From assembly GCA_028873095.1 (NCBI GenBank), contig JAGWMU010000002.1:1-49392 (forward strand): a DNA stretch of 49,392 nt, given 5' to 3'. A model generated the notes under the pieces. The model was not told where the DNA came from, did no database searches, and saw only the letters and a list, made by a program, of their open reading frames with translations. This DNA comes from Pseudomonadota bacterium. Lineage in GTDB: Bacteria > Pseudomonadota > Gammaproteobacteria > Xanthomonadales > Rhodanobacteraceae. A program made the translations under genes and the position numbers. Every line of letters begins with the position of its first letter. The stretch's first letter is position 1. Of this stretch, positions 1,793-43,603 are shown one piece after another.

Positions 1793-4549
1793 TCAAAACC
1801 GGGGGGACGTCGGCACCAGCCTGAGTTTGCTCGGCGCATGCGGATGGGCGGGGCACAGCAGAAGCTTGATCTCGCCGGCCTCGATCGGATAGGCATACAG
1901 ATAGCCCTGCCCTTCGATGCAACCCTCGCGCAGCAGGAACTCATGCTGCCCCTCAGTTTCGATGCCTTCGGCGATCGTGCTCAAACCAAGGCTCTTCGCC
2001 ATCGCCAGCATCGCCTTGGCAATCGCCACATCGTTGGCACTGGCCGGCAACCCCGTCACGAAGGAACGGTCGATCTTCAGGTAGGACACGGCCGGCAGCT
2101 TGAGATAGGCCATGGAGGAATAGCCCGTGCCGAAGTCGTCGATCGCCACCTCGATGCCCAGCGCATGCAGCGCGCGCATGGTGCGTTCGGTCTCGTCGCC
2201 GAGCTTCAGCATGGCGCCCTCGGTGATTTCCAGCATCAACCGGCTCGCGGACAGCTGCGTCGAATGCAGCACCCGCTCCAGCCCCTCGACGAAGGCCGGA
2301 TGACCGAACCAGCGGGCGGAGACATTGACCGCCACGCGAATCGGCGGCACGCCCGCGCTGTCCCATGCCTCGATCTGCGCGCACGCCGTTTTCAGCACCC
2401 ACTCGTCGATGCGGCGAATCAGGCCGAGGCTTTCGGCCACCGGGATGAACTCCGCCGGCATCACCTCGCCGCGTCCCGGGTGTCGCCAGCGCAACAGCGC
2501 CTCGACCGCCACGATGCGGCCGGTGCGCAGATCGACGCTGGGTTGATAGACCAGGCGCAGCTGGTCGCTGGCCAGTGCATGGCGCAACTCGGTTGCCAGC
2601 AGCAGACGCCGGCTGGTGTTGGCATGCATCAGCGGCGTGTAGAAACGGAAGGTGTTGCGCTCTTCGGTTTTCGCCACGTACATGGCGGCATCGGCATTGG
2701 CGATCAGGGTGACCGCCGTGTCGCCGTCCAGCGGGTAGCCGGCGATGCCGATGCTGGCACTCATCACGATTTCGTACTCGTCCACCGAGAAAGGTTCGGA
2801 CAGGGCGGCAAGCAGGCGTCTGGCGACGGTGATGGCATCCTCGCGCAAGTTCATGCGGCCGATCAATACGGTGAATTCGTCGCCGCCGATGCGTCCGGCC
2901 ACATCGGTGCCGGACAACTGCCGCTGGATGCGCTCGCCCACCCTTACCAGCACGCGGTCGCCGATCGCATGGCTGTAGCTGTCGTTGACGAGCTTGAATG
3001 CGTCCAGATCGATGAACAGCACCGCGGCAGCCTGACGATCACGACCCACGCCGGCGATCGCCTCGTCGCACTGCCGCTCGAACTCCGCCCGGTTGACCAG
3101 GCCGGTCAGCGGATCGTGCCGTGCCAGGTACTCCAGCCGACGCTGATTGACCTTGCTGGCGAAAATGTTGGTGAACACCGCGACGTAGTAGAGCACCTGA
3201 TTTTCCGCGTCGCGGATGGCGCTGATGCTCAGGTGCTCCGGATAGCTGGTGCCGTCGCGACGCATACTGAGCACTTCACCGAGCCAGTTGCGGCCGGCGG
3301 CGATGTCATCCCAGATGGCTTGCGGCATCGGCGAGCCGTCCGACAGGCTGCGGGTATCGTCGATGCGCCTGTCACGCAGATCCTGTGCGCTGAACCCCGT
3401 GATCTCGGCATGCGCGGCATTGGTCGAAACCACCATCCGGTCGGCGTCGGCGATGATCACGCCTTCAGCAATGCTGGACAGCGCCTCGGCGGCAATCCGG
3501 CGCTCCTGCTCCATCTCCACCCGTTCGGTGATGTCGCGGATGATCGCCTGGCGCACCGGCCTGTCGGCCCAGGTGGCCAGGCTGCTGTGCGTCTCCACCG
3601 GCCGGGTGCCGCCTGCGGCGTCGAGCAGGGTGTTGCTGTCCGGGCGATCGGTCAGGTGCGAAACGCTGCGCATGAACAGTCGGTCGAACCGGTCGCCGAC
3701 CAGATCCCCCGCACTGCGCCCGGTCCACGCCGATGCCATGCGGTTGGCGTCGAGTATCCGCCCACTCGCGTCATCGACCATCACGATCGCATCGGCCGCG
3801 CTGTCGAACAGCAGGCGGTAGCGCTCTTCGGTGCCGCGAACGCTTGCAAAGATCCGCCGTGCCATGCGCAACCAGAGCAGGACGGCAATGCCGGCGGCTA
3901 AAAGTACCGCGTAGAACAGCATATGGCCGAGCCATACGGCACCAAGGGCTATTTCCAGCGAAAAAAGATCGGCCTGTGGCTGTATTGCACGATTGAGTTT
4001 GTCAATGCGCGCTCGCTGCGCGCCGATCTGGTCGCGCGTCACCGAACCGTCCACGTACGAATGCTGCAACTCCGTGGCTATGGCATGCAACTGATCGATC
4101 GACTGGTCGGTGGAGCGCCACGCTTGCATTGCCTTGTGCATGTGCGGCGACAGGTGAAAATACCGCAGCAGGAAGATCATGCCCGCTTTGGCCGTGGGCA
4201 TGACGTTTCCGCGAACAAAGGCTTGATTCACTTCGGCCTTGTCAAAGTGGCCACTTACAATGGCATCCCTGGCCATGCGATCGGACTCCAGCAGAGAGTA
4301 ATCGCGGGTGAAACTGGCGAATGATGCCGGATCGCCAGCAATCGCGTAATTATCGAGATCGATTACTGCCTGCTTCTGCGCCTTTGACCAGATGCTCTCG
4401 CTGTTGAGAAAGCCCGCGAGCGTAACCTGAACCTGCAGAGCCCCCCAGGTAAGCAGGAGAACCAGACCGATGATTGCAACCAGCGCGTAAGCGAGCGGCA
4501 TCAATCGATACTGCAGGGAGCTTTGCAAAGTGGTGTGTGTGCTACGCAT
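1793..4549 (-). CDS. Membrane-anchored PAS-GGDEF-EAL c-di-GMP turnover protein; last codons supplied by the IS end
   Basis: N-terminal TM segments, PAS-like regions, intact GGDEF (RIGGDEFTVLIG) and EAL (VAVEALLRWRHP) motifs. The stop lies inside the IS terminal repeat. Confidence 0.93.
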   Translation of the reverse strand: MRSTHTTLQSSLQYRLMPLAYALVAIIGLVLLLTWGALQVQVTLAGFLNSESIWSKAQKQAVIDLDNYAIAGDPASFASFTRDYSLLESDRMARDAIVSGHFDKAEVNQAFVRGNVMPTAKAGMIFLLRYFHLSPHMHKAMQAWRSTDQSIDQLHAIATELQHSYVDGSVTRDQIGAQRARIDKLNRAIQPQADLFSLEIALGAVWLGHMLFYAVLLAAGIAVLLWLRMARRIFASVRGTEERYRLLFDSAADAIVMVDDASGRILDANRMASAWTGRSAGDLVGDRFDRLFMRSVSHLTDRPDSNTLLDAAGGTRPVETHSSLATWADRPVRQAIIRDITERVEMEQERRIAAEALSSIAEGVIIADADRMVVSTNAAHAEITGFSAQDLRDRRIDDTRSLSDGSPMPQAIWDDIAAGRNWLGEVLSMRRDGTSYPEHLSISAIRDAENQVLYYVAVFTNIFASKVNQRRLEYLARHDPLTGLVNRAEFERQCDEAIAGVGRDRQAAAVLFIDLDAFKLVNDSYSHAIGDRVLVRVGERIQRQLSGTDVAGRIGGDEFTVLIGRMNLREDAITVARRLLAALSEPFSVDEYEIVMSASIGIAGYPLDGDTAVTLIANADAAMYVAKTEERNTFRFYTPLMHANTSRRLLLATELRHALASDQLRLVYQPSVDLRTGRIVAVEALLRWRHPGRGEVMPAEFIPVAESLGLIRRIDEWVLKTACAQIEAWDSAGVPPIRVAVNVSARWFGHPAFVEGLERVLHSTQLSASRLMLEITEGAMLKLGDETERTMRALHALGIEVAIDDFGTGYSSMAYLKLPAVSYLKIDRSFVTGLPASANDVAIAKAMLAMAKSLGLSTIAEGIETEGQHEFLLREGCIEGQGYLYAYPIEAGEIKLLLCPAHPHAPSKLRLVPTSPRF

Positions 4550-11533: not shown

Positions 11534-12829
<1,296 letters not shown>

Positions 12830-12868
12830 ACGTGGCTCCGTGGATGGCGATATGGTCGTGGACGGGTT

Positions 12869-14464
12869 TCAGGCGAGGCGGTCGTAGGCAGGCAGGGTCA
12901 GGAAATCCGTCAGCTGCTCGGCATGGGTCAGTGCGGAGAACAACGCGGCGGCGTCATCGACCCGCGCCGCCCCGGGAACGTCGCTTGCGCGCAAACGGTG
13001 GGCATGCGCGGCGAGTGCCTGGTCGAACAGCGCGAAGTCGATCGGCGCGTGGTCGCTGAACTCGAGCGCGCCGTGATGCAGCCACTGCCACAGCTGGGCA
13101 CGGGCGATCTCCGCGGTGGCCGCGTCTTCCATCAGGTTGTGGATCGGCACGCAGCCGAGCCCGTCGAGCCAGGCCGCGGTGTAGCGCAGCGCGACCTCCA
13201 CGTTGTTGTCGAATCCGGCACGGCTGATCGAGCCGCCGCACGGGGCGACCAGCTGGTCGCGCGTCACCCGGACATCCTCGCGCAGCACCTCCAGCTGGTT
13301 TGCCGCCGGCATGTGCTGGTCGAAGATTTCCCGCGCCACCGGCACCAGCGCCGGATGCGCGACCCAGGTACCGTCGTGGCCGGCCCGCACCTCGCGCAGC
13401 TTGTCGGCGCGCACCTTGGCCATCGCCGCCTCGTTCGCGGCGTCGTCGCCGCGGATCGGAATCTGCGCCGCCATGCCGCCCATCGCGAACGCGCCGCGGC
13501 GATGGCAGGTCTGGATCAGCAGTTCCGAATAGGCCTTCAGGAACGGCACCGTCATCGACACCTGGCCACGTTCCGGCAGCAGGCGGTCGCGATGGCCGCG
13601 CAGGGTCTTGATGTACGAAAAAATGTAATCCCAGCGGCCGCAGTTGAGGCCGACGGCACGGCGGCGCAGCGCATGCAGGATCTCGTGCATCTGGAACACC
13701 GCCGGCAGCGTCTCGATCAACACCGTGGCTTTCATGCAGCCGACCGGCAGGCCGAGCTCGCTTTCCGCCAGCGCCATCACCTCGTCCCACAGCGCTGCCT
13801 CTTCCATCGCCTCCAGTTTGGGCAGGTAGAAGAACGGCCCCCGCCCCTGCCGATGCAGGGCACGGGCGTTGTGGAAGACGAACAGGCCGAAGTCGACCAG
13901 GGCACCGGCCATCGTCTCGCCGTCGACGCTGACATGCCGCTCGGGCAGGTGCCAGCCGCGCGGGCGCACCACCAGCACCGCGGGGTTGTCGCCCACGCGG
14001 TAGTGCCTGCCCTCCGGCGAATGGAATTCGATGTTGCCGTTCACCGCATCGCGCAGGTTGATCTGGCCGTCGAGCTGGTTGGCGAAACTCGGCGCCGAGG
14101 AATCCTCGAAGTCGGCCATGAACACCTTGGCGCCGGAATTGAGCGCATTGATGATCATCTTGCGTTCGACCGGCCCGGTGATTTCCACGCGGCGATCCTG
14201 CAGCGCGGCCGGTATGGCGGCCACGCGCCAGTCGCCGCCGCGGATGGATGCGGTGTCGGCACGAAAATCCGGCAATGCGCCGGCGTCGAAGCGGGCCTGA
14301 CGGTCGCGCCTGGCCTGCAGCAGCTGCTGACGAACCGGCTCTGCAAACTGATGCAGCCGGGCCAGAAAGGCCAGTGCGTCCGGGGTCAGGATGCTTTCGT
14401 AACCGGCCCGTTGGGCACGGATCTCGACGTTGCCTGTGACGAATCGTTCTTGGGGGACTGCCAT
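12869..14464 (-). CDS. aceB: Malate synthase A
   Basis: MADFEDSSAPSFANQLDGQINLRDAV; YLPKLEAMEEAALWDEV; LNCGRWDYIFSYIK; typical MSA. Confidence 0.97.
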   Translation of the reverse strand: MAVPQERFVTGNVEIRAQRAGYESILTPDALAFLARLHQFAEPVRQQLLQARRDRQARFDAGALPDFRADTASIRGGDWRVAAIPAALQDRRVEITGPVERKMIINALNSGAKVFMADFEDSSAPSFANQLDGQINLRDAVNGNIEFHSPEGRHYRVGDNPAVLVVRPRGWHLPERHVSVDGETMAGALVDFGLFVFHNARALHRQGRGPFFYLPKLEAMEEAALWDEVMALAESELGLPVGCMKATVLIETLPAVFQMHEILHALRRRAVGLNCGRWDYIFSYIKTLRGHRDRLLPERGQVSMTVPFLKAYSELLIQTCHRRGAFAMGGMAAQIPIRGDDAANEAAMAKVRADKLREVRAGHDGTWVAHPALVPVAREIFDQHMPAANQLEVLREDVRVTRDQLVAPCGGSISRAGFDNNVEVALRYTAAWLDGLGCVPIHNLMEDAATAEIARAQLWQWLHHGALEFSDHAPIDFALFDQALAAHAHRLRASDVPGAARVDDAAALFSALTHAEQLTDFLTLPAYDRLA

Positions 14465-14524
14465 GAGCTTGCTCCGGTCTCGTGAGACTCGAAGCTAGGC
14501 AGAAAGAATGTATTTGACAATGTA

Positions 14525-14582
14525 AATGTTTCAATTATTGATATTGACTTTATCAATTTATATTTCAAGATACTGAAACATT
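14525..14582. promoter_or_regulatory. AT-rich divergent aceB/lysR control region with nested inverted repeats
   Basis: Outer AATGTTTCA (14525-14533)/TGAAACATT (14574-14582); inner ATTGATA (14537-14543)/TATCAAT (14551-14557). Confidence 0.6.
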
Positions 14583-14605
14583 GGATGAAAATTCGGGGAA
14601 AAAGC

Positions 14606-15625
14606 ATGAATGCGGCGAAAAAAAGTTCGCGTCCGGCGCCGAAAACTCGTGTCGGGAACAAGCCAGTCGAGGAAAAAGCCGGTCGCTACTACTACAAGGG
14701 CAACCGCCACAAGCAACTGCGGGCGTTTGTCACGGTGGTGAAACTGGGCAGCCTGACCCGTGCGGCCGAAGCGCTGTATCTGTCGCAACCGACAATCAGC
14801 CTGCAGTTGCAGGCGCTGGAGCGCGAACTGGGCCTGAGCCTGCTCGAACGCAGCCGCCGCCGCATCAACCTCACCGATGCCGGCGAGGCACTGTACGAGC
14901 TGACCCGCCCGCTGGTGGAGGGCTGGGAAACCCTGGACGGCGATTTTCAGGCCAAGGTGAAAGGCCTGCACGGCGGCCGGCTCACCATCGCCGCCGGCAC
15001 CTCGACGATCCAGTACCTGCTGCCGGAACTGGTGCGTCGTTTCCGCGAACGCTTTCCCGCGGTGAAACTGCAACTGGCGAATGTCACCGGCAAGGACGGC
15101 CTCGCCATGCTGCGCGAGGACCAGGCCGACTTCGCGGTCGGTTCGATGCTCGACGTACCCAATGACATCGCCTGGGCACCGGTGCATCACTACGACCCGA
15201 TGCTGATCATGCCGCCGGATCATCCGCTGGCAAGCAAGGAAGAGATCGCACTGGAGGATCTGTCGCCCTACGGGCTGATCCTGCCGCCACAACGATTGTC
15301 CACTTACCGGCTGGTCGATCTGGTGTTCCAGCAGCGCCAGGTGCCGTATCAGGTCGCCATCGAAGTCGGCGGGTGGGACGTGATCAAGGAATACGTCGCG
15401 ATGGGACTGGGCATTTCGATCGTCACCGGCATCTGCATCACCGGGGCCGATCGCGGCCGGCTGGCGGTGCGCAACCTGCGCCAGTATTTTCCCCAGCGGG
15501 CCTACGGCGTGGTCATGCGCAAGGGCAAGTTTCTCAGCGCCGAGGCGCGCGCGTTCATCGACCTGATCAATCCGGGCCTGCTGACCCATCGCGACTACGA
15601 CGAGTCGGGCCATTCGCAGCGCTAA
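14606..15625 (+). CDS. LysR-family regulator (CysB-like), divergent from aceBA
   Basis: RHKQLRAFVTVVKLGSLTRAAEALYLSQPTISLQLQALERELG HTH plus substrate-binding domain. ATG at 14606 preferred (GGGGA upstream); alternative 14585. Confidence 0.93.
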   Translation: MNAAKKSSRPAPKTRVGNKPVEEKAGRYYYKGNRHKQLRAFVTVVKLGSLTRAAEALYLSQPTISLQLQALERELGLSLLERSRRRINLTDAGEALYELTRPLVEGWETLDGDFQAKVKGLHGGRLTIAAGTSTIQYLLPELVRRFRERFPAVKLQLANVTGKDGLAMLREDQADFAVGSMLDVPNDIAWAPVHHYDPMLIMPPDHPLASKEEIALEDLSPYGLILPPQRLSTYRLVDLVFQQRQVPYQVAIEVGGWDVIKEYVAMGLGISIVTGICITGADRGRLAVRNLRQYFPQRAYGVVMRKGKFLSAEARAFIDLINPGLLTHRDYDESGHSQR

Positions 15626-15741: not shown

Positions 15742-16677
15742 TCAGTCCCGGTTCCGCCCGATCCAGTCCCGGTACGTGCGGTAATGGTGGATGGCGAAGC
15801 CGGCGAACGAGGGATCGTTGCGCAATGCCTGCTCCACGATGCTCACGGCCTGCTCGAACGCCTTCGGACCCGCCTTGTCGAAGGTGACCTTCTCCGGCTC
15901 GTCGGGCGACACCTCGAGGCCGATCACCACCTTCTTGCCGACGCGGTCGGCGTAGGCGATCGCGCTGGCGGCGTGCGAGAGGATGCTGTCGCTGCCTTCG
16001 GCCTTGTTCCGGTAGTCCATCAAGGCGACGTAGTCGAACAGGTCGATGACGTGCTCGCTCGCCGGGCGCCTGACGCCCTTCCATTCCACCTCGATGCCGT
16101 CCAGCCAGAACGGGATGGCGGGGCCCACGGCCAGGCTGGCGTGGTACTCGCGCTTGATCTTCATCAGCGCGTCGCCCATGTCGAGGAAATCGGCGAGCAG
16201 GCGCTCGCGGGTATTGTCGTTCCACTCGTCGAGGATGTGCGGCTCGATGTCAAGGTTGGCGCCGTCGAAGCGCGCCGCGGCCGGCGCGCCCACGTTGTAC
16301 AGCACCACCCGGCGGAACATGTCCTCGGCCTGCCGGCGATAGGCGGGCAGCACGTAACGTTCCGTGTGCAGGTAGGCCGAACCCAGCAGCGCGTACACCT
16401 TCATGTGCCGCCGGTGCAGCCGCTCGATGAAGGCGCGATACAGCTCGGGATGCTCGACGATCAGGTTGTGGCCCTGGTACGCATCGGCGTAGAGGTACAC
16501 GGTGTCGATGTGCTGCGACTGCAGGTAGGCCACAGCTTCCCGTGCGACGGCCGGATCCTTGACCATGGCGTAGGAGTCGGCCTCCCAGGTCCAGACGGCG
16601 CGACTGACCCGGGCCATCGCGCCGATCGGCAGCGCGCACAGCAGCATTGTCAGGCACAGGCGGGCGACGCGGCTCAT
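15742..16677 (-). CDS. Secreted GH18-like/TIM-barrel protein
   Basis: MSRVARLCLTMLLCALPIGAMARVSRAVWTWEADSYAM...FDGANLDIEPH...; signal peptide and DGxxxDxE-like motif. Confidence 0.7.
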   Translation of the reverse strand: MSRVARLCLTMLLCALPIGAMARVSRAVWTWEADSYAMVKDPAVAREAVAYLQSQHIDTVYLYADAYQGHNLIVEHPELYRAFIERLHRRHMKVYALLGSAYLHTERYVLPAYRRQAEDMFRRVVLYNVGAPAAARFDGANLDIEPHILDEWNDNTRERLLADFLDMGDALMKIKREYHASLAVGPAIPFWLDGIEVEWKGVRRPASEHVIDLFDYVALMDYRNKAEGSDSILSHAASAIAYADRVGKKVVIGLEVSPDEPEKVTFDKAGPKAFEQAVSIVEQALRNDPSFAGFAIHHYRTYRDWIGRNRD

Positions 16678-19061
16678 GGCGCGCCTCCGGTCGTGCTGCC
16701 GGCATCCACCGGTATGTGGTACTGCCCTTGCCCGACGGCCTTGCCGGATTGCGGATCGGACGGGAACACCGACAGGTAGCAGCGGCTGCTGCAGGCGCCG
16801 GGACGCTGCAAGGTCAGTTGCACCTGCCGGTGTCCGTTCGCGGGCAGCTGCAGGGCGTGGCCGGAGGTTTCCTGCAGCTCGTGGCCGTCCGCGGCGGTCA
16901 GCACGGCCAGCGGCACGAAGGCACGGCTTGGTCGCGCGTCGCCGTTGTCGAAGGTGGCCGTCAGCTGCACACCCTGGCCCACCAGCGTCACCTCGGTCGA
17001 TTCCGTCGACAGGCCGTGCACGACCGGCGCATTGCCGGCCGGCTGCAGCGCCGGCGCGGCGGCCTGGTAAGCCACCAGTTTCGGCGAGGCGCCAGCGGGA
17101 TCCAGCGCCAGTTTCTGCATGAAGATCGCATTGGCCTGTTCGTAGCGCTGCAGGCGGCGCGTCGCCCAGCCGAGCGCGGCGGCATCGTCGGCCGGGATGA
17201 GGTGCATGCCGTCCTGCAGCTCGAACAATCGCCCGTCGTGCAGCCACCAGCGGCCGGCCAGGTAATCCGGCGCGCTGGTCTTGGTCTGCTGCAGGGGCAG
17301 CTGGTGGATGTTGCGGAAGCTGTCGTCCAGGTCCAGGCCGGTGCCCAGCCACGGCGTCTGTGCCGGCCGCTTCAGCCCATAGGTATGCGACAGCAGCGCC
17401 AGCAGCGACGGCGTGACATCCAGCTGCGAGGACACGGCGCGGAAGTGCCGGGCCTGCTTGAGCAGCGGCGAGAAGATGATCAGCGGCACGTGGTAGCGGT
17501 CGATGTGCTCGCCCATCGGGATCTCCGGCAGGCGGTGATCGCCGGTGATCACGAAGATGGTGTCGGCGTACCACGGCTGCTTCGCCACCGTATCGAAATA
17601 GCGGCGCAGCTCGTCGTCGGTGTAGAGGATGCTGCTGTAGATGTCGGCGCTGGCCCGATAGGAAGCGAGCTGGTCGGCGGGAATGCGCAAGTCGCGCAGG
17701 CGTTGTTCGAAGCGTGCGAGGTAGGCGTCCTGGCCCGGGAACTTGTACACGGTGTGCATGGAGATGGTCTGCATCGCCAGCAGGAACGGGCTTTGCAGTT
17801 GCGCGCTGTCGGCCAGCACGCGCGACACCAGCTCCTGGTCCGGGTAGCCCCATTCGCTGAAGGGGTTGAGCTGATAGCCGGGGCCGAAGCTCTTCCTGTC
17901 CACCAGGTGCTGCACGCCCTGCAGCTGCATGAACGCGCGCTCGTCGTCGAAGGTGGTGTCGGTGCCGTTGTAGAACGCGGTGTGGTAGCCCTGCTGCTCC
18001 AGCAGGTTGAACAGGCCCGGGCTGGGCGGCATGCGCGCACCCAGCGAGGTGAAGCCCTCCCGGGCGAACGGCGCCGAGTTGAACAGGCTGGGCAGCACGC
18101 CGAAGGTGCGGCCCTGGTTGGACAGGAAGTTGTCGAAGTACAGGCTGCGCGCCGCCAGCGCGTCGAGGAAGGGCGTGAAGCTTCCCAGCGATGCCTGCGG
18201 ACCGGAGAACGAGCGCCCCAGTCCCTCGACCACGATCACCACCAGGTTGGGCGGGCGGCCGTCCGACGTGGGCGAGAAGTACGGACCGAGCGTATCCGGC
18301 GTCCGCTCCGGGTGCAGGAACGGAAACTGCGGGTCCAGCCGCGGCTCGCCGGCGCGGGCGGTGGCCGCCTTACCCGGCGTGGATACCGCTGCGGCATCGC
18401 TCATCGACCAGCGCCAGACATCGGCGCAGAACCATGCCAGCTTGTTGCTGGCCAGGTCGCGCGCCGCGTCGTCCGGCAGCGCCCGCGCACCCGCGGGCAG
18501 CGGCGGCAGCCATGCCAGCAGGCCCGCGATCAGCAGCAGGCTGGTCCAGCGCAGGGAGCCGCCGACCCGACGGCGCGCGCACAGGTACAGGCCGCCCCAG
18601 AGCAGCAGCAGCGGCAAGGCGTAGGCCAGCACGCTGCGCGGATCGAGCGGTATGTAGCCGGACACGGTGGTACGGATTTCCGCGACGCTGTAGCCGAACA
18701 GGTCCGCCCCCAGCGGCACGTGCGCCACCTGGAAGTACTGGTCGAGCCCGGTCTGCACCACGATGAACAGCGACCACAGCACGGCCAGGGCCACGACGCG
18801 CAGCCGCTCCCGCCGCAAGGCCAGCAACGGAAGCGACAACAGCAGCAGGATCGGCACCGCGCGCAGCAGCACCAGCGCCGCCTGCGCGAATGCGATGCCG
18901 GCGATGGCCCACTTCTGGCTGCCGCCCCAGGCGACGTCGGCGACGCCCTCGGCGACCGCGCACGCCACCAGCGCGAACTGTGCCGGCAACAATGCCGGGA
19001 ATGCAGCGGAAAAGCGCGACCAGGGGTTGCCGCGGCGCGCGGAGGCCGGCAACCGTGCCAT
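16674..19061 (-). CDS. Membrane LTA-synthase-like sulfatase (alkaline phosphatase superfamily; putative phosphoglycerol/phosphoethanolamine transferase)
   Basis: N-terminal TM helices; NLVVIVVEGLGRSFSG, SNQGRTFGVLPSLF (candidate catalytic Thr), FVITGDHRLPE metal-binding motif. Confidence 0.87.
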   Translation of the reverse strand: MARLPASARRGNPWSRFSAAFPALLPAQFALVACAVAEGVADVAWGGSQKWAIAGIAFAQAALVLLRAVPILLLLSLPLLALRRERLRVVALAVLWSLFIVVQTGLDQYFQVAHVPLGADLFGYSVAEIRTTVSGYIPLDPRSVLAYALPLLLLWGGLYLCARRRVGGSLRWTSLLLIAGLLAWLPPLPAGARALPDDAARDLASNKLAWFCADVWRWSMSDAAAVSTPGKAATARAGEPRLDPQFPFLHPERTPDTLGPYFSPTSDGRPPNLVVIVVEGLGRSFSGPQASLGSFTPFLDALAARSLYFDNFLSNQGRTFGVLPSLFNSAPFAREGFTSLGARMPPSPGLFNLLEQQGYHTAFYNGTDTTFDDERAFMQLQGVQHLVDRKSFGPGYQLNPFSEWGYPDQELVSRVLADSAQLQSPFLLAMQTISMHTVYKFPGQDAYLARFEQRLRDLRIPADQLASYRASADIYSSILYTDDELRRYFDTVAKQPWYADTIFVITGDHRLPEIPMGEHIDRYHVPLIIFSPLLKQARHFRAVSSQLDVTPSLLALLSHTYGLKRPAQTPWLGTGLDLDDSFRNIHQLPLQQTKTSAPDYLAGRWWLHDGRLFELQDGMHLIPADDAAALGWATRRLQRYEQANAIFMQKLALDPAGASPKLVAYQAAAPALQPAGNAPVVHGLSTESTEVTLVGQGVQLTATFDNGDARPSRAFVPLAVLTAADGHELQETSGHALQLPANGHRQVQLTLQRPGACSSRCYLSVFPSDPQSGKAVGQGQYHIPVDAGSTTGGAP

Positions 19062-20353
19062 CACCACAGCGCGTACAAGGTAGCCGACAGGATCTGCTCG
19101 TTGACGCCGGCTACGTCGCTGCCCTCGCCATAGCCGGCGCTGAGCTTGAAGCCCCAGCGCGGTGACAGGTAGTGGCTCCAGGCGACGCCGATGGCGGCAT
19201 GGTTGTTGAACACCTGGGTGCCGTAGCGATTCAGGTCGGTGCTGCGGCCGTTGCCGACGCTCAGCTCCAGGTAGTCGAAGGCATTGCCGCGGTAGTAGTT
19301 GCGCAGCAGGAAGCGGTTGCTCCAGCTGCCGGAACCCACGCCAGGCACGTATTGCAGCTTGTAGCGCGCGTACCAGTCGCCCCAGTAGCGGCCCACGCCG
19401 ACGCCGTAGAACTGGGTGTTGCTGGAGAAATGCAGGTGATCGACGCTGGCCGACAGCTCCCAGCCGCGGCCCACGCCCTGGAACACTTCCGCGCGCCATT
19501 CCTGCTGCGGCAGGATGCCGGAGCCGGGACCCTGCTGGTAGCGCAGGTTGGCGTAGGCGCGCGACCACAGCGGCACGTAGCCGTCCAGCGCCCAGGCCGT
19601 GTCGCTGGTACCGAAGTGGTCGGCGCGCAGCAGCTCCAGCGCCAGCGAGCCCTGACTGAAGTAGCGGCGCAGCGACAGGTCGACGTCGTTCCAGCCTTGC
19701 TGCCCGCCGGTGAAGCCGGTGTGGTCCCAGCTGAGGCTGGCGCCCCAGTCGTACCCGGTGCCGAAGGCGGTCGTGCGCGGCAGCAGGCTTTGCCGCAAGC
19801 CGTCTATTTCGGCCGGATTCGCCCCCAGCGTCGCGGCCGTATCGAAATCGGCGCGGGCGGCGGCGAGTTGTCCCATGTCGCGCTGGGCGCTACCGCGCGC
19901 GATGTACGCTTTCGGATCGCGCGGCGCCAGTTTCACCCAGTGCGAATAGGCGTCGACCGCCTCTTGCGGGCGACCGCTCCAGCGATAGACATCGCCCAGC
20001 GCCGACCATGCATCGGCGTAATCCGGACTGTGCTGCACCACCGTGTGCAGGTCGCTTTCGGCCGCGGCGTATTGCCCGTCCCAGGCATAGGTGCGTCCAC
20101 GCGCCAGCAGCAGATCGCCGTTGCCGGGGTGCTCGGCCAGCAGGGCCGTGTAGCGCTGGATGGCCAGCTTCTTCTGGCCGCTGGTGGCGAGCTGGCGTAT
20201 CTGCACCATCTGCGTCGCCAGCGCGTCGGGAGCTGCGGCCTGCGCCAGCAGGCAGGGCGAAAACGCCGTCAGGGCCAGCAGCAGCGGCCACCGGGCGCGG
20301 AACGTGCGGGAGGGATGCCTTGCCACGACCACGGAAGGGTTCCTGCGCTTCAT
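19061..20353 (-). CDS. TPR protein with C-terminal YaiO-type outer-membrane beta-barrel
   Basis: MKRRNPSVVVARHPSRTFRARWPLLLALTAF signal; TPRs (LLLARGRTYAWDGQYAAAESDL...DAWSALGDVYRWSGRPQEAVDAY); beta-barrel ending in ILSATLYALW with terminal aromatic. Confidence 0.85.
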   Translation of the reverse strand: MKRRNPSVVVARHPSRTFRARWPLLLALTAFSPCLLAQAAAPDALATQMVQIRQLATSGQKKLAIQRYTALLAEHPGNGDLLLARGRTYAWDGQYAAAESDLHTVVQHSPDYADAWSALGDVYRWSGRPQEAVDAYSHWVKLAPRDPKAYIARGSAQRDMGQLAAARADFDTAATLGANPAEIDGLRQSLLPRTTAFGTGYDWGASLSWDHTGFTGGQQGWNDVDLSLRRYFSQGSLALELLRADHFGTSDTAWALDGYVPLWSRAYANLRYQQGPGSGILPQQEWRAEVFQGVGRGWELSASVDHLHFSSNTQFYGVGVGRYWGDWYARYKLQYVPGVGSGSWSNRFLLRNYYRGNAFDYLELSVGNGRSTDLNRYGTQVFNNHAAIGVAWSHYLSPRWGFKLSAGYGEGSDVAGVNEQILSATLYALW

Positions 20354-21861
20354 GGATGGCTGCTCCTGTCGGCATGCTGGTCGGTCGGCATCGTTTCGTT
20401 CTCCGCCGGGTTGTGCTGCCAGGAACCGTCGCGATTGATATGGCCCCACCGATGGTGTTTGCGCAGTCCGAGCAGCCAGAGCAAGGTGCCGTAGAAGCGC
20501 CAGCAGGAATTCATCTGCCGGTAGCCGAAGTTTTCCAGCACCGCAACGACGAACAGGCGCAATTGCTGCGCCGGCCGTGCGTACAGGCCGAAGGACAGCT
20601 CTTCCAGCAGCATCGCGTTGACCGAAAGCAGCACGCCCATGCCTATCGCCGCCGCGAGGAAAACCAGGAATATCTTCAGCGGCACCAGGCCGGCCAAAGC
20701 CAGCACGATCATCGAGACGTAGCCGACCACCTCGATGATCGGGCCGAGGAACTCGAACACCAGCATGAACGGGAACGCCACCCAGCCCGCCGCGCCGCCG
20801 CGCCGGTTGAACATCAGGCCGATGTTCGACCACAGGCTTTCGGCCAGTCCGCGTTGCCAGCGCACGCGCTGGTGGCCCAGCGAGGCGATGTCCGTCGGCA
20901 CCTCGGTCCAGCACACCGGGTCCGGCACGAACACGATGCGATAGTCGCGCTTCTCCTTGCGCAGGTTGCGGTGCAACCGGACGATCAGGTCCATGTCCTC
21001 GCCCACCGTATCGTCGCGATAGCCGCCGATGGCGATCACCCGTTCCTTGTAGAACACGCCGAAGGCGCCGGAGATGATCAGCAGCGCGTTCATGGGCGAC
21101 CAGCCCATGCGCCCGAACAGGAACGCGCGCAGGTACTCGATCACCTGGAAGCTGGGCAGCCAGTGGTCGGGCAGGCCCACCTTGGACATCATGCCGTTGA
21201 CGACCTTGCAGCCGTTGAGCACGCGCACCACGCCGCCGCTGGCCACCACGCGCCCGTCCTCCAGGAACGGCCGCACCACCCGCGAGAGGCTTTCCGGCTG
21301 CAGGATGCAGTCGGCGTCCACCACGCAATACAGCGGATAACGCACGCAGTTGATGCCGGCGTTGATCGCATCGGACTTGCCGCCTTTGACCTTGTCCACC
21401 ATGCGCACCTGCGGATAGCGCGCCGAGGCGTAGACGCCCCTGACCTGCTCGGTTGGCAGTCGGGCACGATAGGCTTCGGGCACCATCACCAGGCCAAAGG
21501 CCTCGATCAGCGCCTCGCGGGTGAGGTCGCTGGAACCGTCGTTGACCACGACGACCTCGAATTCGGGGTAGTTGGTCTTGAGCAGCGAGTGCACCGAGGC
21601 CACCACCGATTTCACCTCGTTGTGCGCGGGCAACACGATGCTTACCGGGGGCTGGTATTCGCGCAGGCCGGGCGGCAGGTAGTTGGCCCGGTATTCGCGC
21701 ATGTAGCGCACGATCTGGTAGGCGGAGATGTAGTTGAGGATCAGGTAGGCCAGGTTGATCGCCACGAAATAGATCATGAAGATCCATTGCATCGACGCCA
21801 GCGCATGGGCCCAGGATCCTTGCTGGAGGCTGGCCACGAACACGTTCCAGTGAGTGTTCAT
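20350..21861 (-). CDS. Processive family-2 glycosyltransferase (polysaccharide synthase-like)
   Basis: SIVLPAHNEVKSV, VVVNDGSSD, YCVVDADCIL, VGEDMDLIVRL, GHQRVRWQRG (QxxRW); multiple TM segments. Confidence 0.93.
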   Translation of the reverse strand: MNTHWNVFVASLQQGSWAHALASMQWIFMIYFVAINLAYLILNYISAYQIVRYMREYRANYLPPGLREYQPPVSIVLPAHNEVKSVVASVHSLLKTNYPEFEVVVVNDGSSDLTREALIEAFGLVMVPEAYRARLPTEQVRGVYASARYPQVRMVDKVKGGKSDAINAGINCVRYPLYCVVDADCILQPESLSRVVRPFLEDGRVVASGGVVRVLNGCKVVNGMMSKVGLPDHWLPSFQVIEYLRAFLFGRMGWSPMNALLIISGAFGVFYKERVIAIGGYRDDTVGEDMDLIVRLHRNLRKEKRDYRIVFVPDPVCWTEVPTDIASLGHQRVRWQRGLAESLWSNIGLMFNRRGGAAGWVAFPFMLVFEFLGPIIEVVGYVSMIVLALAGLVPLKIFLVFLAAAIGMGVLLSVNAMLLEELSFGLYARPAQQLRLFVVAVLENFGYRQMNSCWRFYGTLLWLLGLRKHHRWGHINRDGSWQHNPAENETMPTDQHADRSSHP

Positions 21862-22922
21862 GCCACGGCTCCCATGTCGTGTTCGGAAAGCACCTGGTCG
21901 ATGATGTCCCGACCGTAGGCGTCGCTCTGCCGCTGTTGCATCTGGCGCAGCGCTGCCGCCCCCATGCCCGGCAGCGCCAACAGCGCCTGCGCGGCCCGGT
22001 AGCGCACCCACCACACCTGGTCGGCCAGCAGCGGCTCCAGGCGCTGGGCGTCGGCTGCCTCGCCGATGCGGCCCAGCGCCGACGCCGCATGCATGCGCAC
22101 GTGCCAGCGCGATGCGCCGAGGAAACCCGCCACCCGCTCGCGATCCTGCTTGTCGCTCACCAGCTGCAGGCAGACCGAGATGGCGTGGTCGTCGATCGAG
22201 CTGTCGAGCAGTTGCCGGATCACCCCTGCGGCATGTCCGGGATCGATGTCGGCCATGAAGCGCACCAGCTTCACCACCGTGCTGGTGTTGGCACGCAGCA
22301 GCGCGTTGTCGAGCTCGCGCACCGCGCTGCCGTCCTCGTTCCGGGCGAGGATGCGCGCCACGTTGCCCGACACCCAGTCGTCGCGTTCCAGGATCATCGG
22401 CACGAACATCGCCATCGCCTGGGGCGGATCCACCTGCCCCAGCGCGTGCGCCGCGCACAGCGAAACGATGGGGCTGCCGTCGTTGAGGAAGGGCACCAGT
22501 TCGTCGAACACGCCATGGTCGCGCAAGTGCCCGAGCGCGATGATCGCCATCGCGCGGTCGTGGTAATTGCCTCGCAACATCGGTCGCGCCGCATCCACCA
22601 GGCCCACGCGATGCCCCAGCGGCAACAGGCGCGCCGAGTCCGGCGGGGACAGCGATTCGTGGGTTGCGTTCCAGGCTTCGATGAAGCCGGCGACATCATC
22701 GCGTCCCAGGCGACGCACCCGCGCCTCTTCCCCTGCCAGCACATGTCGCATCACCTGCAGCCAGTGCTGTTGCGCGCGCTTGTCGCGCAGTTCGCGCCTT
22801 TGCGAACGCGCGCGCAGGAAAACGATGACCGTCAAGAGACTGAAGGCAAGCAACAGGGTGAGCACCGCCACCCAGTACGCCACGGTCAGCAGCATCGCCC
22901 CATTGGCAGGATTTTCCATCAC
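21858..22922 (-). CDS. Membrane-anchored HEAT-repeat protein
   Basis: N-terminal TM AYWVAVLTLLLAFSLLTVIVFL, then repeated helical pairs (LVPFLNDGSPIVSLCAAHALGQV; VRMHAASALGRIGEAADAQRLEPLLADQVWWVRYRAAQALLAL). Confidence 0.78.
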   Translation of the reverse strand: MMENPANGAMLLTVAYWVAVLTLLLAFSLLTVIVFLRARSQRRELRDKRAQQHWLQVMRHVLAGEEARVRRLGRDDVAGFIEAWNATHESLSPPDSARLLPLGHRVGLVDAARPMLRGNYHDRAMAIIALGHLRDHGVFDELVPFLNDGSPIVSLCAAHALGQVDPPQAMAMFVPMILERDDWVSGNVARILARNEDGSAVRELDNALLRANTSTVVKLVRFMADIDPGHAAGVIRQLLDSSIDDHAISVCLQLVSDKQDRERVAGFLGASRWHVRMHAASALGRIGEAADAQRLEPLLADQVWWVRYRAAQALLALPGMGAAALRQMQQRQSDAYGRDIIDQVLSEHDMGAVA

Positions 22923-23356
22923 GCCCCCCTTGTTTTGTCTTTACGGCACGAGCTCAGTCCACGCTCGATACATCCACAACTGGTTCCGGACGCAATGAAC
23001 GGCACCGCGCCCGCCCCCCGAGATCCGCGCGGATCTGCAGCGGCGCATGGCCGGCCATGACCCGATTCTGCACCCGCAAGGGATCGGGCGGGACAGGACA
23101 CGACCGAAAGGCGTCGTCATCGAGGCCCTGGAGCAGGTCCGGCGGGGTGCGCGCATATCCTGGCGCATGGCCGCGCAACGCGCAGCCGCGGTGTACCGCC
23201 CTGACACGGGGGCGCCGACCACGACGAAGGCTCGAGCGCAGCAGGCAGAAAACGGATGCGCCGAAATATGGAAACAAGGACCCTTTCCATGGAGGACACG
23301 TCAGCCGCCTTGTCGGCAATTTGCGAACTGGATCACATTACGTGCAGCAAGATCAC

Positions 23357-34132: not shown

Positions 34133-35155
34133 ATGCGCAGCATCCTGACCTCCCTTCTCGTCTTCGCCGCCGGCGCGCTGCTGGCGTTGGTGCTGTCCCG
34201 GCACGTTTTCCCGACATCGCCCGCCACCGCCACGACCGCGCCGACGACGCCGGCCAGCGTGCGGACGGCCCCTTCGCCGGCGGAAGGCCCCGCCCCCTTG
34301 AACGATGACTGGCCCGAGAACGCCCCGTCGCCGGAGCAGGTGCTCTACCTTCAACGGAACCTGGTCCGCGCCGCGCTGGGACAGCTGACTGCGCGCGTAG
34401 CCGGCAAGCCCAACCTCTATCTGGTGACGTTCGCCGGCGATGGCGGCGAGGATGTTTTCCGCAACGAAGCCGAATATGCGGCGCGACTGTTCGCCGAACG
34501 CTTCGGAGCCACCAGCCACAGCGTGGTGCTGGAAAACAATCCGGCGACACTGGGCACTCGCCCGCTGGCCAGCTGGAGCAATCTGGAAGAGGTACTCCAG
34601 GGCCTGCAAAAAATCATGAAGCCGGACCGGGACATCCTGATGCTCTATGTCACCAGTCACGGCGACGAGGATCACGACCTGCTGGTCGACATGGACCCGC
34701 TGCCGCTGGACCAGATCGGCGCCAGCGACCTGGCCGGCATCCTGGACCGGCAGCCGTTCAAATGGAAAGTGCTGGTGGTCAACGCCTGCTACTCCGGCGG
34801 GTTCATCCCGCCGCTGCACGGCCCCGGCACGCTGGTGTTGACCGCCGCCCGCACCGACCGCAGCTCGTTCGGCTGCGGCAGCGATTCGGACATCACCTAT
34901 TTCGGCAAGGCCTGGCTGGTCGATGCGCTGAACCGGACGCCGGATTTCATCCGGGCATTCAAGCTCGCCAGCATCGAGATCAGCCGGTGGGAAAAGCAGG
35001 ACAAGGTCACGCCGTCGGAACCGCAGATCGATGTCGGCGCCGGCATCGCCGGGCAGCTGGCGTTGTGGCGCAAGGGTTTCGTCCCAGGGCCGAAAGTGCC
35101 CTTCGTGCCGTCGGCCAAGCCGGCGCCGGCCGGCAGCACCGGCCTGCGGCAATGA
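34133..35155 (+). CDS. C13-family (legumain/caspase-like) peptidase, signal-anchored
   Basis: LYVTSHGDEDHDLLV (catalytic His) and LVVNACYSGGFIPPL (catalytic Cys); N-terminal signal/TM. Confidence 0.87.
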   Translation: MRSILTSLLVFAAGALLALVLSRHVFPTSPATATTAPTTPASVRTAPSPAEGPAPLNDDWPENAPSPEQVLYLQRNLVRAALGQLTARVAGKPNLYLVTFAGDGGEDVFRNEAEYAARLFAERFGATSHSVVLENNPATLGTRPLASWSNLEEVLQGLQKIMKPDRDILMLYVTSHGDEDHDLLVDMDPLPLDQIGASDLAGILDRQPFKWKVLVVNACYSGGFIPPLHGPGTLVLTAARTDRSSFGCGSDSDITYFGKAWLVDALNRTPDFIRAFKLASIEISRWEKQDKVTPSEPQIDVGAGIAGQLALWRKGFVPGPKVPFVPSAKPAPAGSTGLRQ

Positions 35156-42976: not shown

Positions 42977-43603
42977 ATCGGGTAGGGAGCCGGAATACTC
43001 CGGCCCCCTCCCACACCACCGTACGTGCGGTTCCGCATACGGCGGTTCCCGTCTGCCATGTAGTTCATGCGAACTTCGAGGCCTTGAGCTTGTTTCGTTC
43101 GTCGTGTCGCCTGTCGTCCTATGGACACCCCAATCACCTTCCGGACTTCCGGCCCGTCCAGCTCTGACCAAGGCTCCCGGCTTGCACCGGAACTTCTGCC
43201 CAAGACGCGCAGAGAGCACGCGTGACTTACCACTCGTGACAGGTTCGGCCCTTCGGTCATACCGCACCTACTATGGCCTCTGCTGACTTCTCGCTCCGCC
43301 TTGCGGCGTTGCCCTTTCAGGCACGAGGCGAGATCTCCCCGGGTATGACGCACCTGCCTTCCCGCTTATGCCTGTCGGATATACGCCGTGTCGTTCCGTG
43401 CAAGTACTGGGCTTTGGCCTTCATGGCTGCCTCACCCCAACACGTCGCCTCGTATCCGCTTCTTGTTCATCAGGCCAGCGTTTTGCCTCGGGCTTCCTTC
43501 AGACGACCAGTCACCCGATCGCCCTTGCCTCTGGCTAATCCTTCCCCTTGCCGGGTGGATAGAGGACTTTCACCTCCAAGCAGGTGCGCCCTGCCGGGCG
43601 CAC
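42977..43603 (-). mobile_element. Group II intron lacking an intron-encoded protein (627 nt)
   Basis: 5' end GTGCGCCCGGCAGGGCGCAC...GGTGAAAGTCC...TTAGCCAGAGGCAAGGGC; domain V hairpin at 43015-43046 (ACCGCCGTATGCG-GAAC-CGCACGTACGGTGGT with 2-nt CG bulge); domain VI-like stem with bulged A ending CCCTACCCGAT. No RT ORF. Confidence 0.87.

Follow-up and report, generated by a model that had tools for sequence, protein, structure and literature searches.

The five-gene operon on the minus strand of the window (the whole 49,392-nucleotide stretch of DNA analysed here) probably encodes a synthase-dependent cell-surface glycan machine, in which a HEAT-gated GT2 synthase would make a polymer for phospho-decoration, trimming and export via YaiO. 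The conserved core is a HEAT-repeat protein with the GT2 synthase, to which a response regulator consisting of a receiver alone is usually added, as is YaiO in diderms; the sulfatase and glycoside hydrolase (GH) genes are accessory modules of the HEAT-GT2 system.

Operon organization and conservation

The operon spanned positions 22922-15742 and consisted of the following genes:
21858..22922, minus strand: HEAT-repeat protein, 354 aa (PF13646, 74.5 bits)
20350..21861, minus strand: GT2 membrane glycan synthase, 503 aa (motifs, AlphaFold2, fold matches)
19061..20353, minus strand: TPR and YaiO outer-membrane beta-barrel protein, 430 aa (PF19413, TIGR04390)
16674..19061, minus strand: LtaS-like phosphotransferase of the alkaline-phosphatase fold, 795 aa (PF00884, 119 bits; alignment with LtaS relatives)
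15742..16677, minus strand: secreted GH-like TIM-barrel protein, 311 aa (alignment, AlphaFold2, Foldseek)

Read on the plus strand, the junctions were TCAT at 21858-21861, 20350-20353 and 16674-16677, and CATCA at 19059-19063. All five minus-strand reading frames and the four overlapping junctions given in the preliminary description were recovered, and its domain labels HEAT, GT2, TPR/YaiO and sulfatase were matched by Pfam/NCBIfam profiles.

The same five-gene order was repeated in three genomes of the same genus, in G071 (another family of the same taxonomic order) and in an uncultured proteobacterium (locus L014), indicating that the arrangement did not arise by chance. The HEAT/GT2, GT2/YaiO and sulfatase/GH overlaps were kept in all four relatives compared (the three genus members and G071). 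The YaiO/sulfatase overlap was kept only in G071 and was not conserved within the genus. Each of the five genes had a dN/dS of approximately 0.2-0.45, showing purifying selection. The GT2 and GH-like genes occurred in an identical set of 5 of 100 related genomes, one of them the window's own, and in none of the others, indicating that the operon is patchily distributed and is inherited or lost in one piece. The full set was rare, with six loci among those examined. Joint conservation of the five genes in other genomes, the lack of which the preliminary description would have taken as a refutation, was thus seen in five genomes carrying the set in order; however, the set is not a generally conserved unit. 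Its rarity would suit the view that the five genes are mere neighbours with no shared product, but that view is extremely improbable given the overlaps retained in four relatives, the selection on every gene, the co-occurrence in the same 5 of 100 genomes and the gene fusions found across phyla (see below).

No near match to the operon was found in the plasmid collection, and no nucleotide-sugar genes were found in the operon or, in Pfam scans of the larger ORFs, elsewhere in the window. Isocitrate lyase and malate synthase genes (minus strand) and a LysR-type regulator gene (plus strand) occupied positions 11534-15625, the regulator gene ending approximately 115 bp from the operon end. Group II intron RNA matches (RF02001, RF01998 and RF00029) were located at 42977-43520 on the minus strand, with three clustered tRNA genes (Cys, Gly, Gly) beside them. 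A protein of the Peptidase C13 (legumain-like) family, which has a mainly eukaryotic association, was encoded at 34133-35155 on the plus strand.

The GT2 synthase is a discrete family

Residues D108, D184 (DAD), D289 (GED) and Q331xxRW335 were invariant across 45 homologues. The AlphaFold2 model (45 sequences) had a mean pLDDT of 90.9, and its top PDB folds were hyaluronan synthases (E 6e-17), followed by cellulose and chitin synthases; BcsA-BcsG structures were also among the matches. The GT2 proteins form a family of their own, sharing a fold like that of hyaluronan synthases and a conserved D,D,D,QxxRW motif. The invariant motif and the predicted HAS/BcsA/Chs-like fold bear out the earlier assignment as a putative processive-type membrane GT2.

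The family was also separable by profile. Its members scored approximately 420 bits or more against the family profile (one frameshifted fragment scored 350), whereas true PgaC proteins scored 119-153 bits. Among NCBIfam models, PgaC/IcaA was the best match to the window GT2, with 117 bits against a cut-off of 422; the CelA equivalog gave 31 bits against a cut-off of 699. These scores agree with the earlier placement of the operon outside the bcs and pga families. No Pfam match to a PilZ domain was found in the operon, and none of the five genes matched a polysaccharide deacetylase (PgaB/IcaB) in Pfam or NCBIfam.

A divergent PNAG system of the pga/ica type would account for PgaC/IcaA being the best curated GT2 model, for the weak match (31 bits) of the PgaA model to the TPR part of the exporter and for GH18-like residues in the fifth protein. 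However, this reading is very unlikely when the GT2 score is set against the PgaC cut-off and the gap is seen in both directions; moreover, the operon lacks a deacetylase, and G071 carries a true PgaC in addition to the five-gene operon.

HEAT accompanies GT2 across phyla

GTDB representatives were searched with the GT2 alignment, yielding 80 loci, and HEAT neighbours were called on six-frame ORFs in view of the long antisense ORFs in high-GC loci. According to record titles, the 80 loci belonged to Pseudomonadota, Bacteroidota, Bacillota, Gemmatimonadota, Acidobacteriota, Elusimicrobiota, Bdellovibrionota, Myxococcota, Nitrospirota, actinobacterial bins, Neomarinimicrobiota and Archaea. A HEAT protein was encoded directly upstream of GT2 in 73 of them, drawn from more than a dozen phyla, Archaea among them. 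In the remaining seven, the contig stopped shortly upstream in two (L049, L077), the GT2 gene was broken in one (L092), an extra transmembrane gene separated HEAT from GT2 in two (L078, L084) and no reason was evident in two (L082, L089). The extra gene of the Bacteroidota loci L078 and L084 encoded a multi-TM protein of approximately 490 aa.

In four further whole-genome samples, HEAT adjoined or was fused to GT2 in 74/74 loci (13/13, 30/30, 22/22 and 9/9), a set that includes the window and three loci (L136, L149 and L168) from genomes already among the 80. By contrast, none of 17 true PgaC synthases from Pseudomonadota, used as a control, had a HEAT gene within approximately 1.5 kb, and the YaiO, sulfatase and response-regulator families seen at the GT2 loci were likewise absent over that distance. 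Sampled genomes carrying the GT2 family numbered 65/247 in Bacteroidota, 22/249 in the phylum to which Paenibacillus belongs, 9/197 in the haloarchaeal phylum sample and 13/397 in Pseudomonadota. The HEAT and GT2 pairing was also present in the plasmid collection, by annotation in Haloarcula, Mesorhizobium, Erythrobacter, Deinococcus, Legionella and Bacteroides and by profile in Emticicia and Paenibacillus.

HEAT and GT2 shared one open frame in two Bacillota genomes (L162, 1381 codons; L165), and GT2 and the LtaS-like enzyme shared one frame in four Bacteroidota loci (L135, L139, L143 and L145), with HEAT upstream. These natural fusions support physical complexes between the proteins. Distance matrices correlated with that of GT2 for HEAT (r 0.68), the LtaS-like enzyme (0.70) and YaiO (0.61), with 0/2000 permutations reaching each value, although shared descent, which the permutation test does not remove, contributes part of these correlations. 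Comparative genomics supports HEAT as an apparently near-obligatory partner of the GT2 synthase.

In the window HEAT protein, basic residues came after a single membrane segment at the N-terminus. An N-terminal hydrophobic segment was found in 65/69 HEAT homologues, with basic residues next in most of the examples printed, which by the positive-inside rule would place the HEAT solenoid in the cytosol.

In Paenibacillus (L008:528-5841), with relatives in L025 and L162, large secreted-looking proteins of 733 and 1033 aa sat between the GH-like gene and the HEAT-GT2 genes. Neither had Pfam or PDB relatives; for the 733-aa protein, sequence comparison gave no relative of solved structure. In L162, the HEAT-GT2 protein was seemingly fused to an extracytoplasmic domain like these large proteins.

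The putative YaiO exporter is confined to diderms

The third protein scored above cut-off with both PF19413 (84.4 bits; cut-off 23.9) and TIGR04390 (117.4; cut-off 32). YaiO-type matches were present in 53/80 loci, an upper estimate as the profile was iterated, and in 0/13 Bacillota and 0/2 archaeal loci, an absence expected of an outer-membrane exporter. The two domain scores and the confinement of YaiO to diderms strengthen the earlier proposal of a TPR/YaiO module with a putative role in export. Downstream of GT2 in Bacteroidota (L010, L061, L076, L080, L087, L088 and others), a DUF4838 protein made up 7/42 neighbours, often coming after GT2 and a YaiO/TPR protein that was large, at approximately 950-1000 aa.

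The LtaS-like enzyme and the GH-like protein are accessory

Alignment with solved LtaS relatives and residue counts in 27 sequences showed that E279, T319, H436, D508 and H509 were conserved in the fourth protein, the nucleophile being Thr as in LtaS and not the Cys/Ser motif of sulfatases. The preliminary label of an LTA-synthase-like sulfatase was therefore correct as to the LtaS type, and the fusion to GT2 in Bacteroidota favors it; however, the catalytic Thr is of the phosphotransferase type. Equivalog scores were low for LtaS (37 bits; cut-off 970) and OpgB/MdoB (25 bits; cut-off 574), and the MdoB and PRK12363 phosphoglycerol transferase models matched weakly (25-42 bits; PRK12363 cut-off 572). 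The gene was present in 15/80 loci.

Two other products were considered in the light of this enzyme. One is a glucan like the osmoregulated periplasmic glucans, made by an OpgH-type GT2, kept in the periplasm and given phosphoglycerol by an OpgB-like enzyme. A GT2 beside a sulfatase-fold phosphotransferase follows the OpgH/OpgB logic, and the weak MdoB and PRK12363 matches agree with it. However, neither cut-off was approached, the operon has a YaiO barrel and no OpgG, and the HEAT-GT2 pair occurs in Bacillota and Archaea, which lack such a periplasm; we regard this product as unlikely. The other is teichoic-acid-like: a non-processive GT2 would make a glycolipid anchor or lipid-linked sugar that serves the LtaS-like enzyme as a base for building or attaching polyglycerol-phosphate. 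The LtaS-type active site with its Thr, the GT2-LtaS-like fusion and the similarity of some lipid-acting GT2s (dolichol- and undecaprenyl-phosphate transferases) would fit, but the best folds are those of processive synthases (HAS, BcsA, Chs), QxxRW and DxD/GED are invariant, and the LtaS-like gene is found in far fewer loci than the barrel exporter (15 against 53 of 80), which makes it quite unlikely. We favor an exported, synthase-dependent glycan over both.

The fifth protein had no Pfam or NCBIfam family match on its own. Its AlphaFold2 model (mean pLDDT 91.7) was an eight-stranded TIM barrel, with D143 and E145 after strand 4 and M220xY222 at strand 6 invariant in 10 homologues. Of the GH18 motifs DxxDxDxE at strand 4 and MxY at strand 6, D143xE145 and M220xY222 were present, and the middle Asp was replaced by N, S, H or Q. 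Foldseek matches were spread over Cwp19, GH53, GH18, GH191 and PslG at TM values of approximately 0.5-0.6, and the PDB relative 10yv, labelled 'putative GH97' and matched at E 1e-28, gave no pointer to an activity. The GH18 profile PF00704 did not match the window protein and matched 1 of 10 homologues weakly (E 1e-4). Hence the earlier term 'GH18-like' was apt for a secreted TIM barrel with GH18-like residues, but on the criteria applied here it could not be assigned to GH18. The GH-like gene was found in 10/80 loci, monoderm Bacillota included. The gene-neighbourhood survey that had been proposed for YaiO, GT2, HEAT and sulfatase thus gave a divided result: the HEAT-GT2 pairing was widespread, but the frequencies of the sulfatase (15/80) and GH (10/80) genes indicated that neither is essential to the system.

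Regulation

A receiver-type response regulator match was found within 5 kb of GT2 in 61/80 loci. Among small upstream proteins, 30/31 were PF00072, and neighbours included Hpt and histidine-kinase domains. A profile search of the window found no response regulator of this neighbouring-receiver kind. The window contained the following candidate element:
23322..23337, no strand assigned: CRP/Clp-type palindrome TGTGA-N6-TCACA, one mismatch, approximately 400 bp upstream of HEAT

CRP and Clp bind the consensus TGTGA-N6-TCACA. Neither the window nor any of the three genus loci had a second match with one mismatch or fewer; in the genus loci the palindrome was perfect and lay 240-255 bp upstream of HEAT, and it was not found in G071. 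Chance would be expected to give 0.86 matches of this quality in the window alone, so the case rests on the conserved position within the genus. A CRP/Clp-type operator, instead of a response regulator, may control transcription of the operon here. When the incomplete genome was searched with PF00325 for the regulator, the sole match was Fnr-like, with N-terminal cysteines, so no regulator is named; several HTH_Crp_2 proteins were encoded in the genus. No riboswitch or other known RNA was found in the gap upstream of the operon, and scans for sigma-70 promoters and terminators gave numbers near chance. A PAS-GGDEF-EAL protein (c-di-GMP enzyme) was encoded at 1793-4549 on the minus strand, approximately 11 kb from the operon.

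Proposed mechanism

Judging from its fold, motifs and relatives, GT2 would polymerise a nucleotide sugar and push the chain through its own membrane channel. HEAT, associated with it by comparative genomics, would be a permanent subunit of the synthase, held by one TM anchor with its solenoid in the cytosol, and may carry the on/off signal; as the preliminary description proposed, it could stand in for the usual copolymerase/PilZ parts. In most genomes that signal would come from the receiver-only response regulator; in the window, the candidate CRP/Clp-type operator may control transcription instead. The TPR-YaiO protein would guide the chain across the periplasm and the outer membrane, and the LtaS-like enzyme could use Thr319 to transfer glycerol-phosphate or ethanolamine-phosphate, the presumed substrates, from phospholipid onto the emerging chain. 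The GH-like TIM barrel may trim or release the chain, a role that BcsZ, PgaB and PslG fill in other systems.

A hexosamine-containing polymer is the leading but weak guess, based on the likeness to hyaluronan and chitin synthases, PgaC and GH18. Three UDP-sugar dehydrogenases were found among the downstream neighbours of GT2 across loci, and in Legionella adelaidensis a nucleotide-sugar dehydrogenase and epimerases lay beside the HEAT-GT2 pair, suggesting that some lineages may use uronic acids.

We tentatively propose a wider reading, which falls a little short of even odds: HEAT-GT2 would be an undescribed glycan-synthase holoenzyme of bacteria and archaea, in which a phosphorylated single-domain response regulator, not c-di-GMP/PilZ, gates polymer synthesis via an obligatory cytosolic HEAT solenoid adaptor. 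Further parts would be lineage-specific additions: YaiO to export the chain across the outer membrane, an LtaS-type enzyme to phospho-decorate it and a GH to trim it, with the window showing the system in its fully equipped form.

Comparison with known systems

The known synthase-dependent systems (cellulose, PNAG, alginate and Pel) form a short list and are mostly controlled by c-di-GMP. If a polymer is made, current lists lack both a common surface glycan and a control route that is independent of c-di-GMP; the natural fusions would then offer single-chain forms amenable to biochemical and structural study. No description of the HEAT-GT2 module was found in the open-access literature when HEAT repeat or YaiO was combined with glycan terms, and one may exist elsewhere; open-access papers pairing HEAT repeat with glycosyltransferase were unrelated to the module where the text was inspected. 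A text on the classification of biofilm operons mentioned neither HEAT nor YaiO (PMC7112194). A precedent for such a switch comes from Myxococcus xanthus, in which the single-domain response regulator EpsW activates the membrane glycan enzyme EpsZ by direct contact; however, its target is a phosphoglycosyl transferase of a Wzx/Wzy pathway and no HEAT adaptor is involved (PMC12802240).

The E. coli-type Bcs system (BcsA, BcsC and BcsZ) and the operon share a membrane GT2, a TPR and barrel exporter and a glycosidase (periplasmic in Bcs), and E. coli BcsG, which adds phosphoethanolamine, resembles the operon enzyme in having an alkaline-phosphatase fold beside the synthase. However, the operon lacks PilZ, BcsB and c-di-GMP parts, and has a HEAT partner and a YaiO-family barrel. 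PgaABCD/IcaADBC provides the closest curated GT2 model and likewise combines a TPR and barrel protein with a GH-type domain, but the operon has neither a deacetylase nor PgaD, its GT2 falls under the PgaC cut-off, no PgaC locus of the 17 had a HEAT gene, and both systems coexist in G071. E. coli YaiP/YaiO and NfrB/NfrA resemble the operon in that the GT2 has an outer-membrane partner of the YaiO or TPR type; neither pair is known to be associated with a HEAT protein, a response regulator or an LtaS-like gene. LtaS/LtaP and OpgB resemble the operon enzyme in fold and in catalytic residues, including the Thr nucleophile, whereas the operon enzyme scores far under their equivalog cut-offs and is found beside, or fused to, a GT2 synthase.
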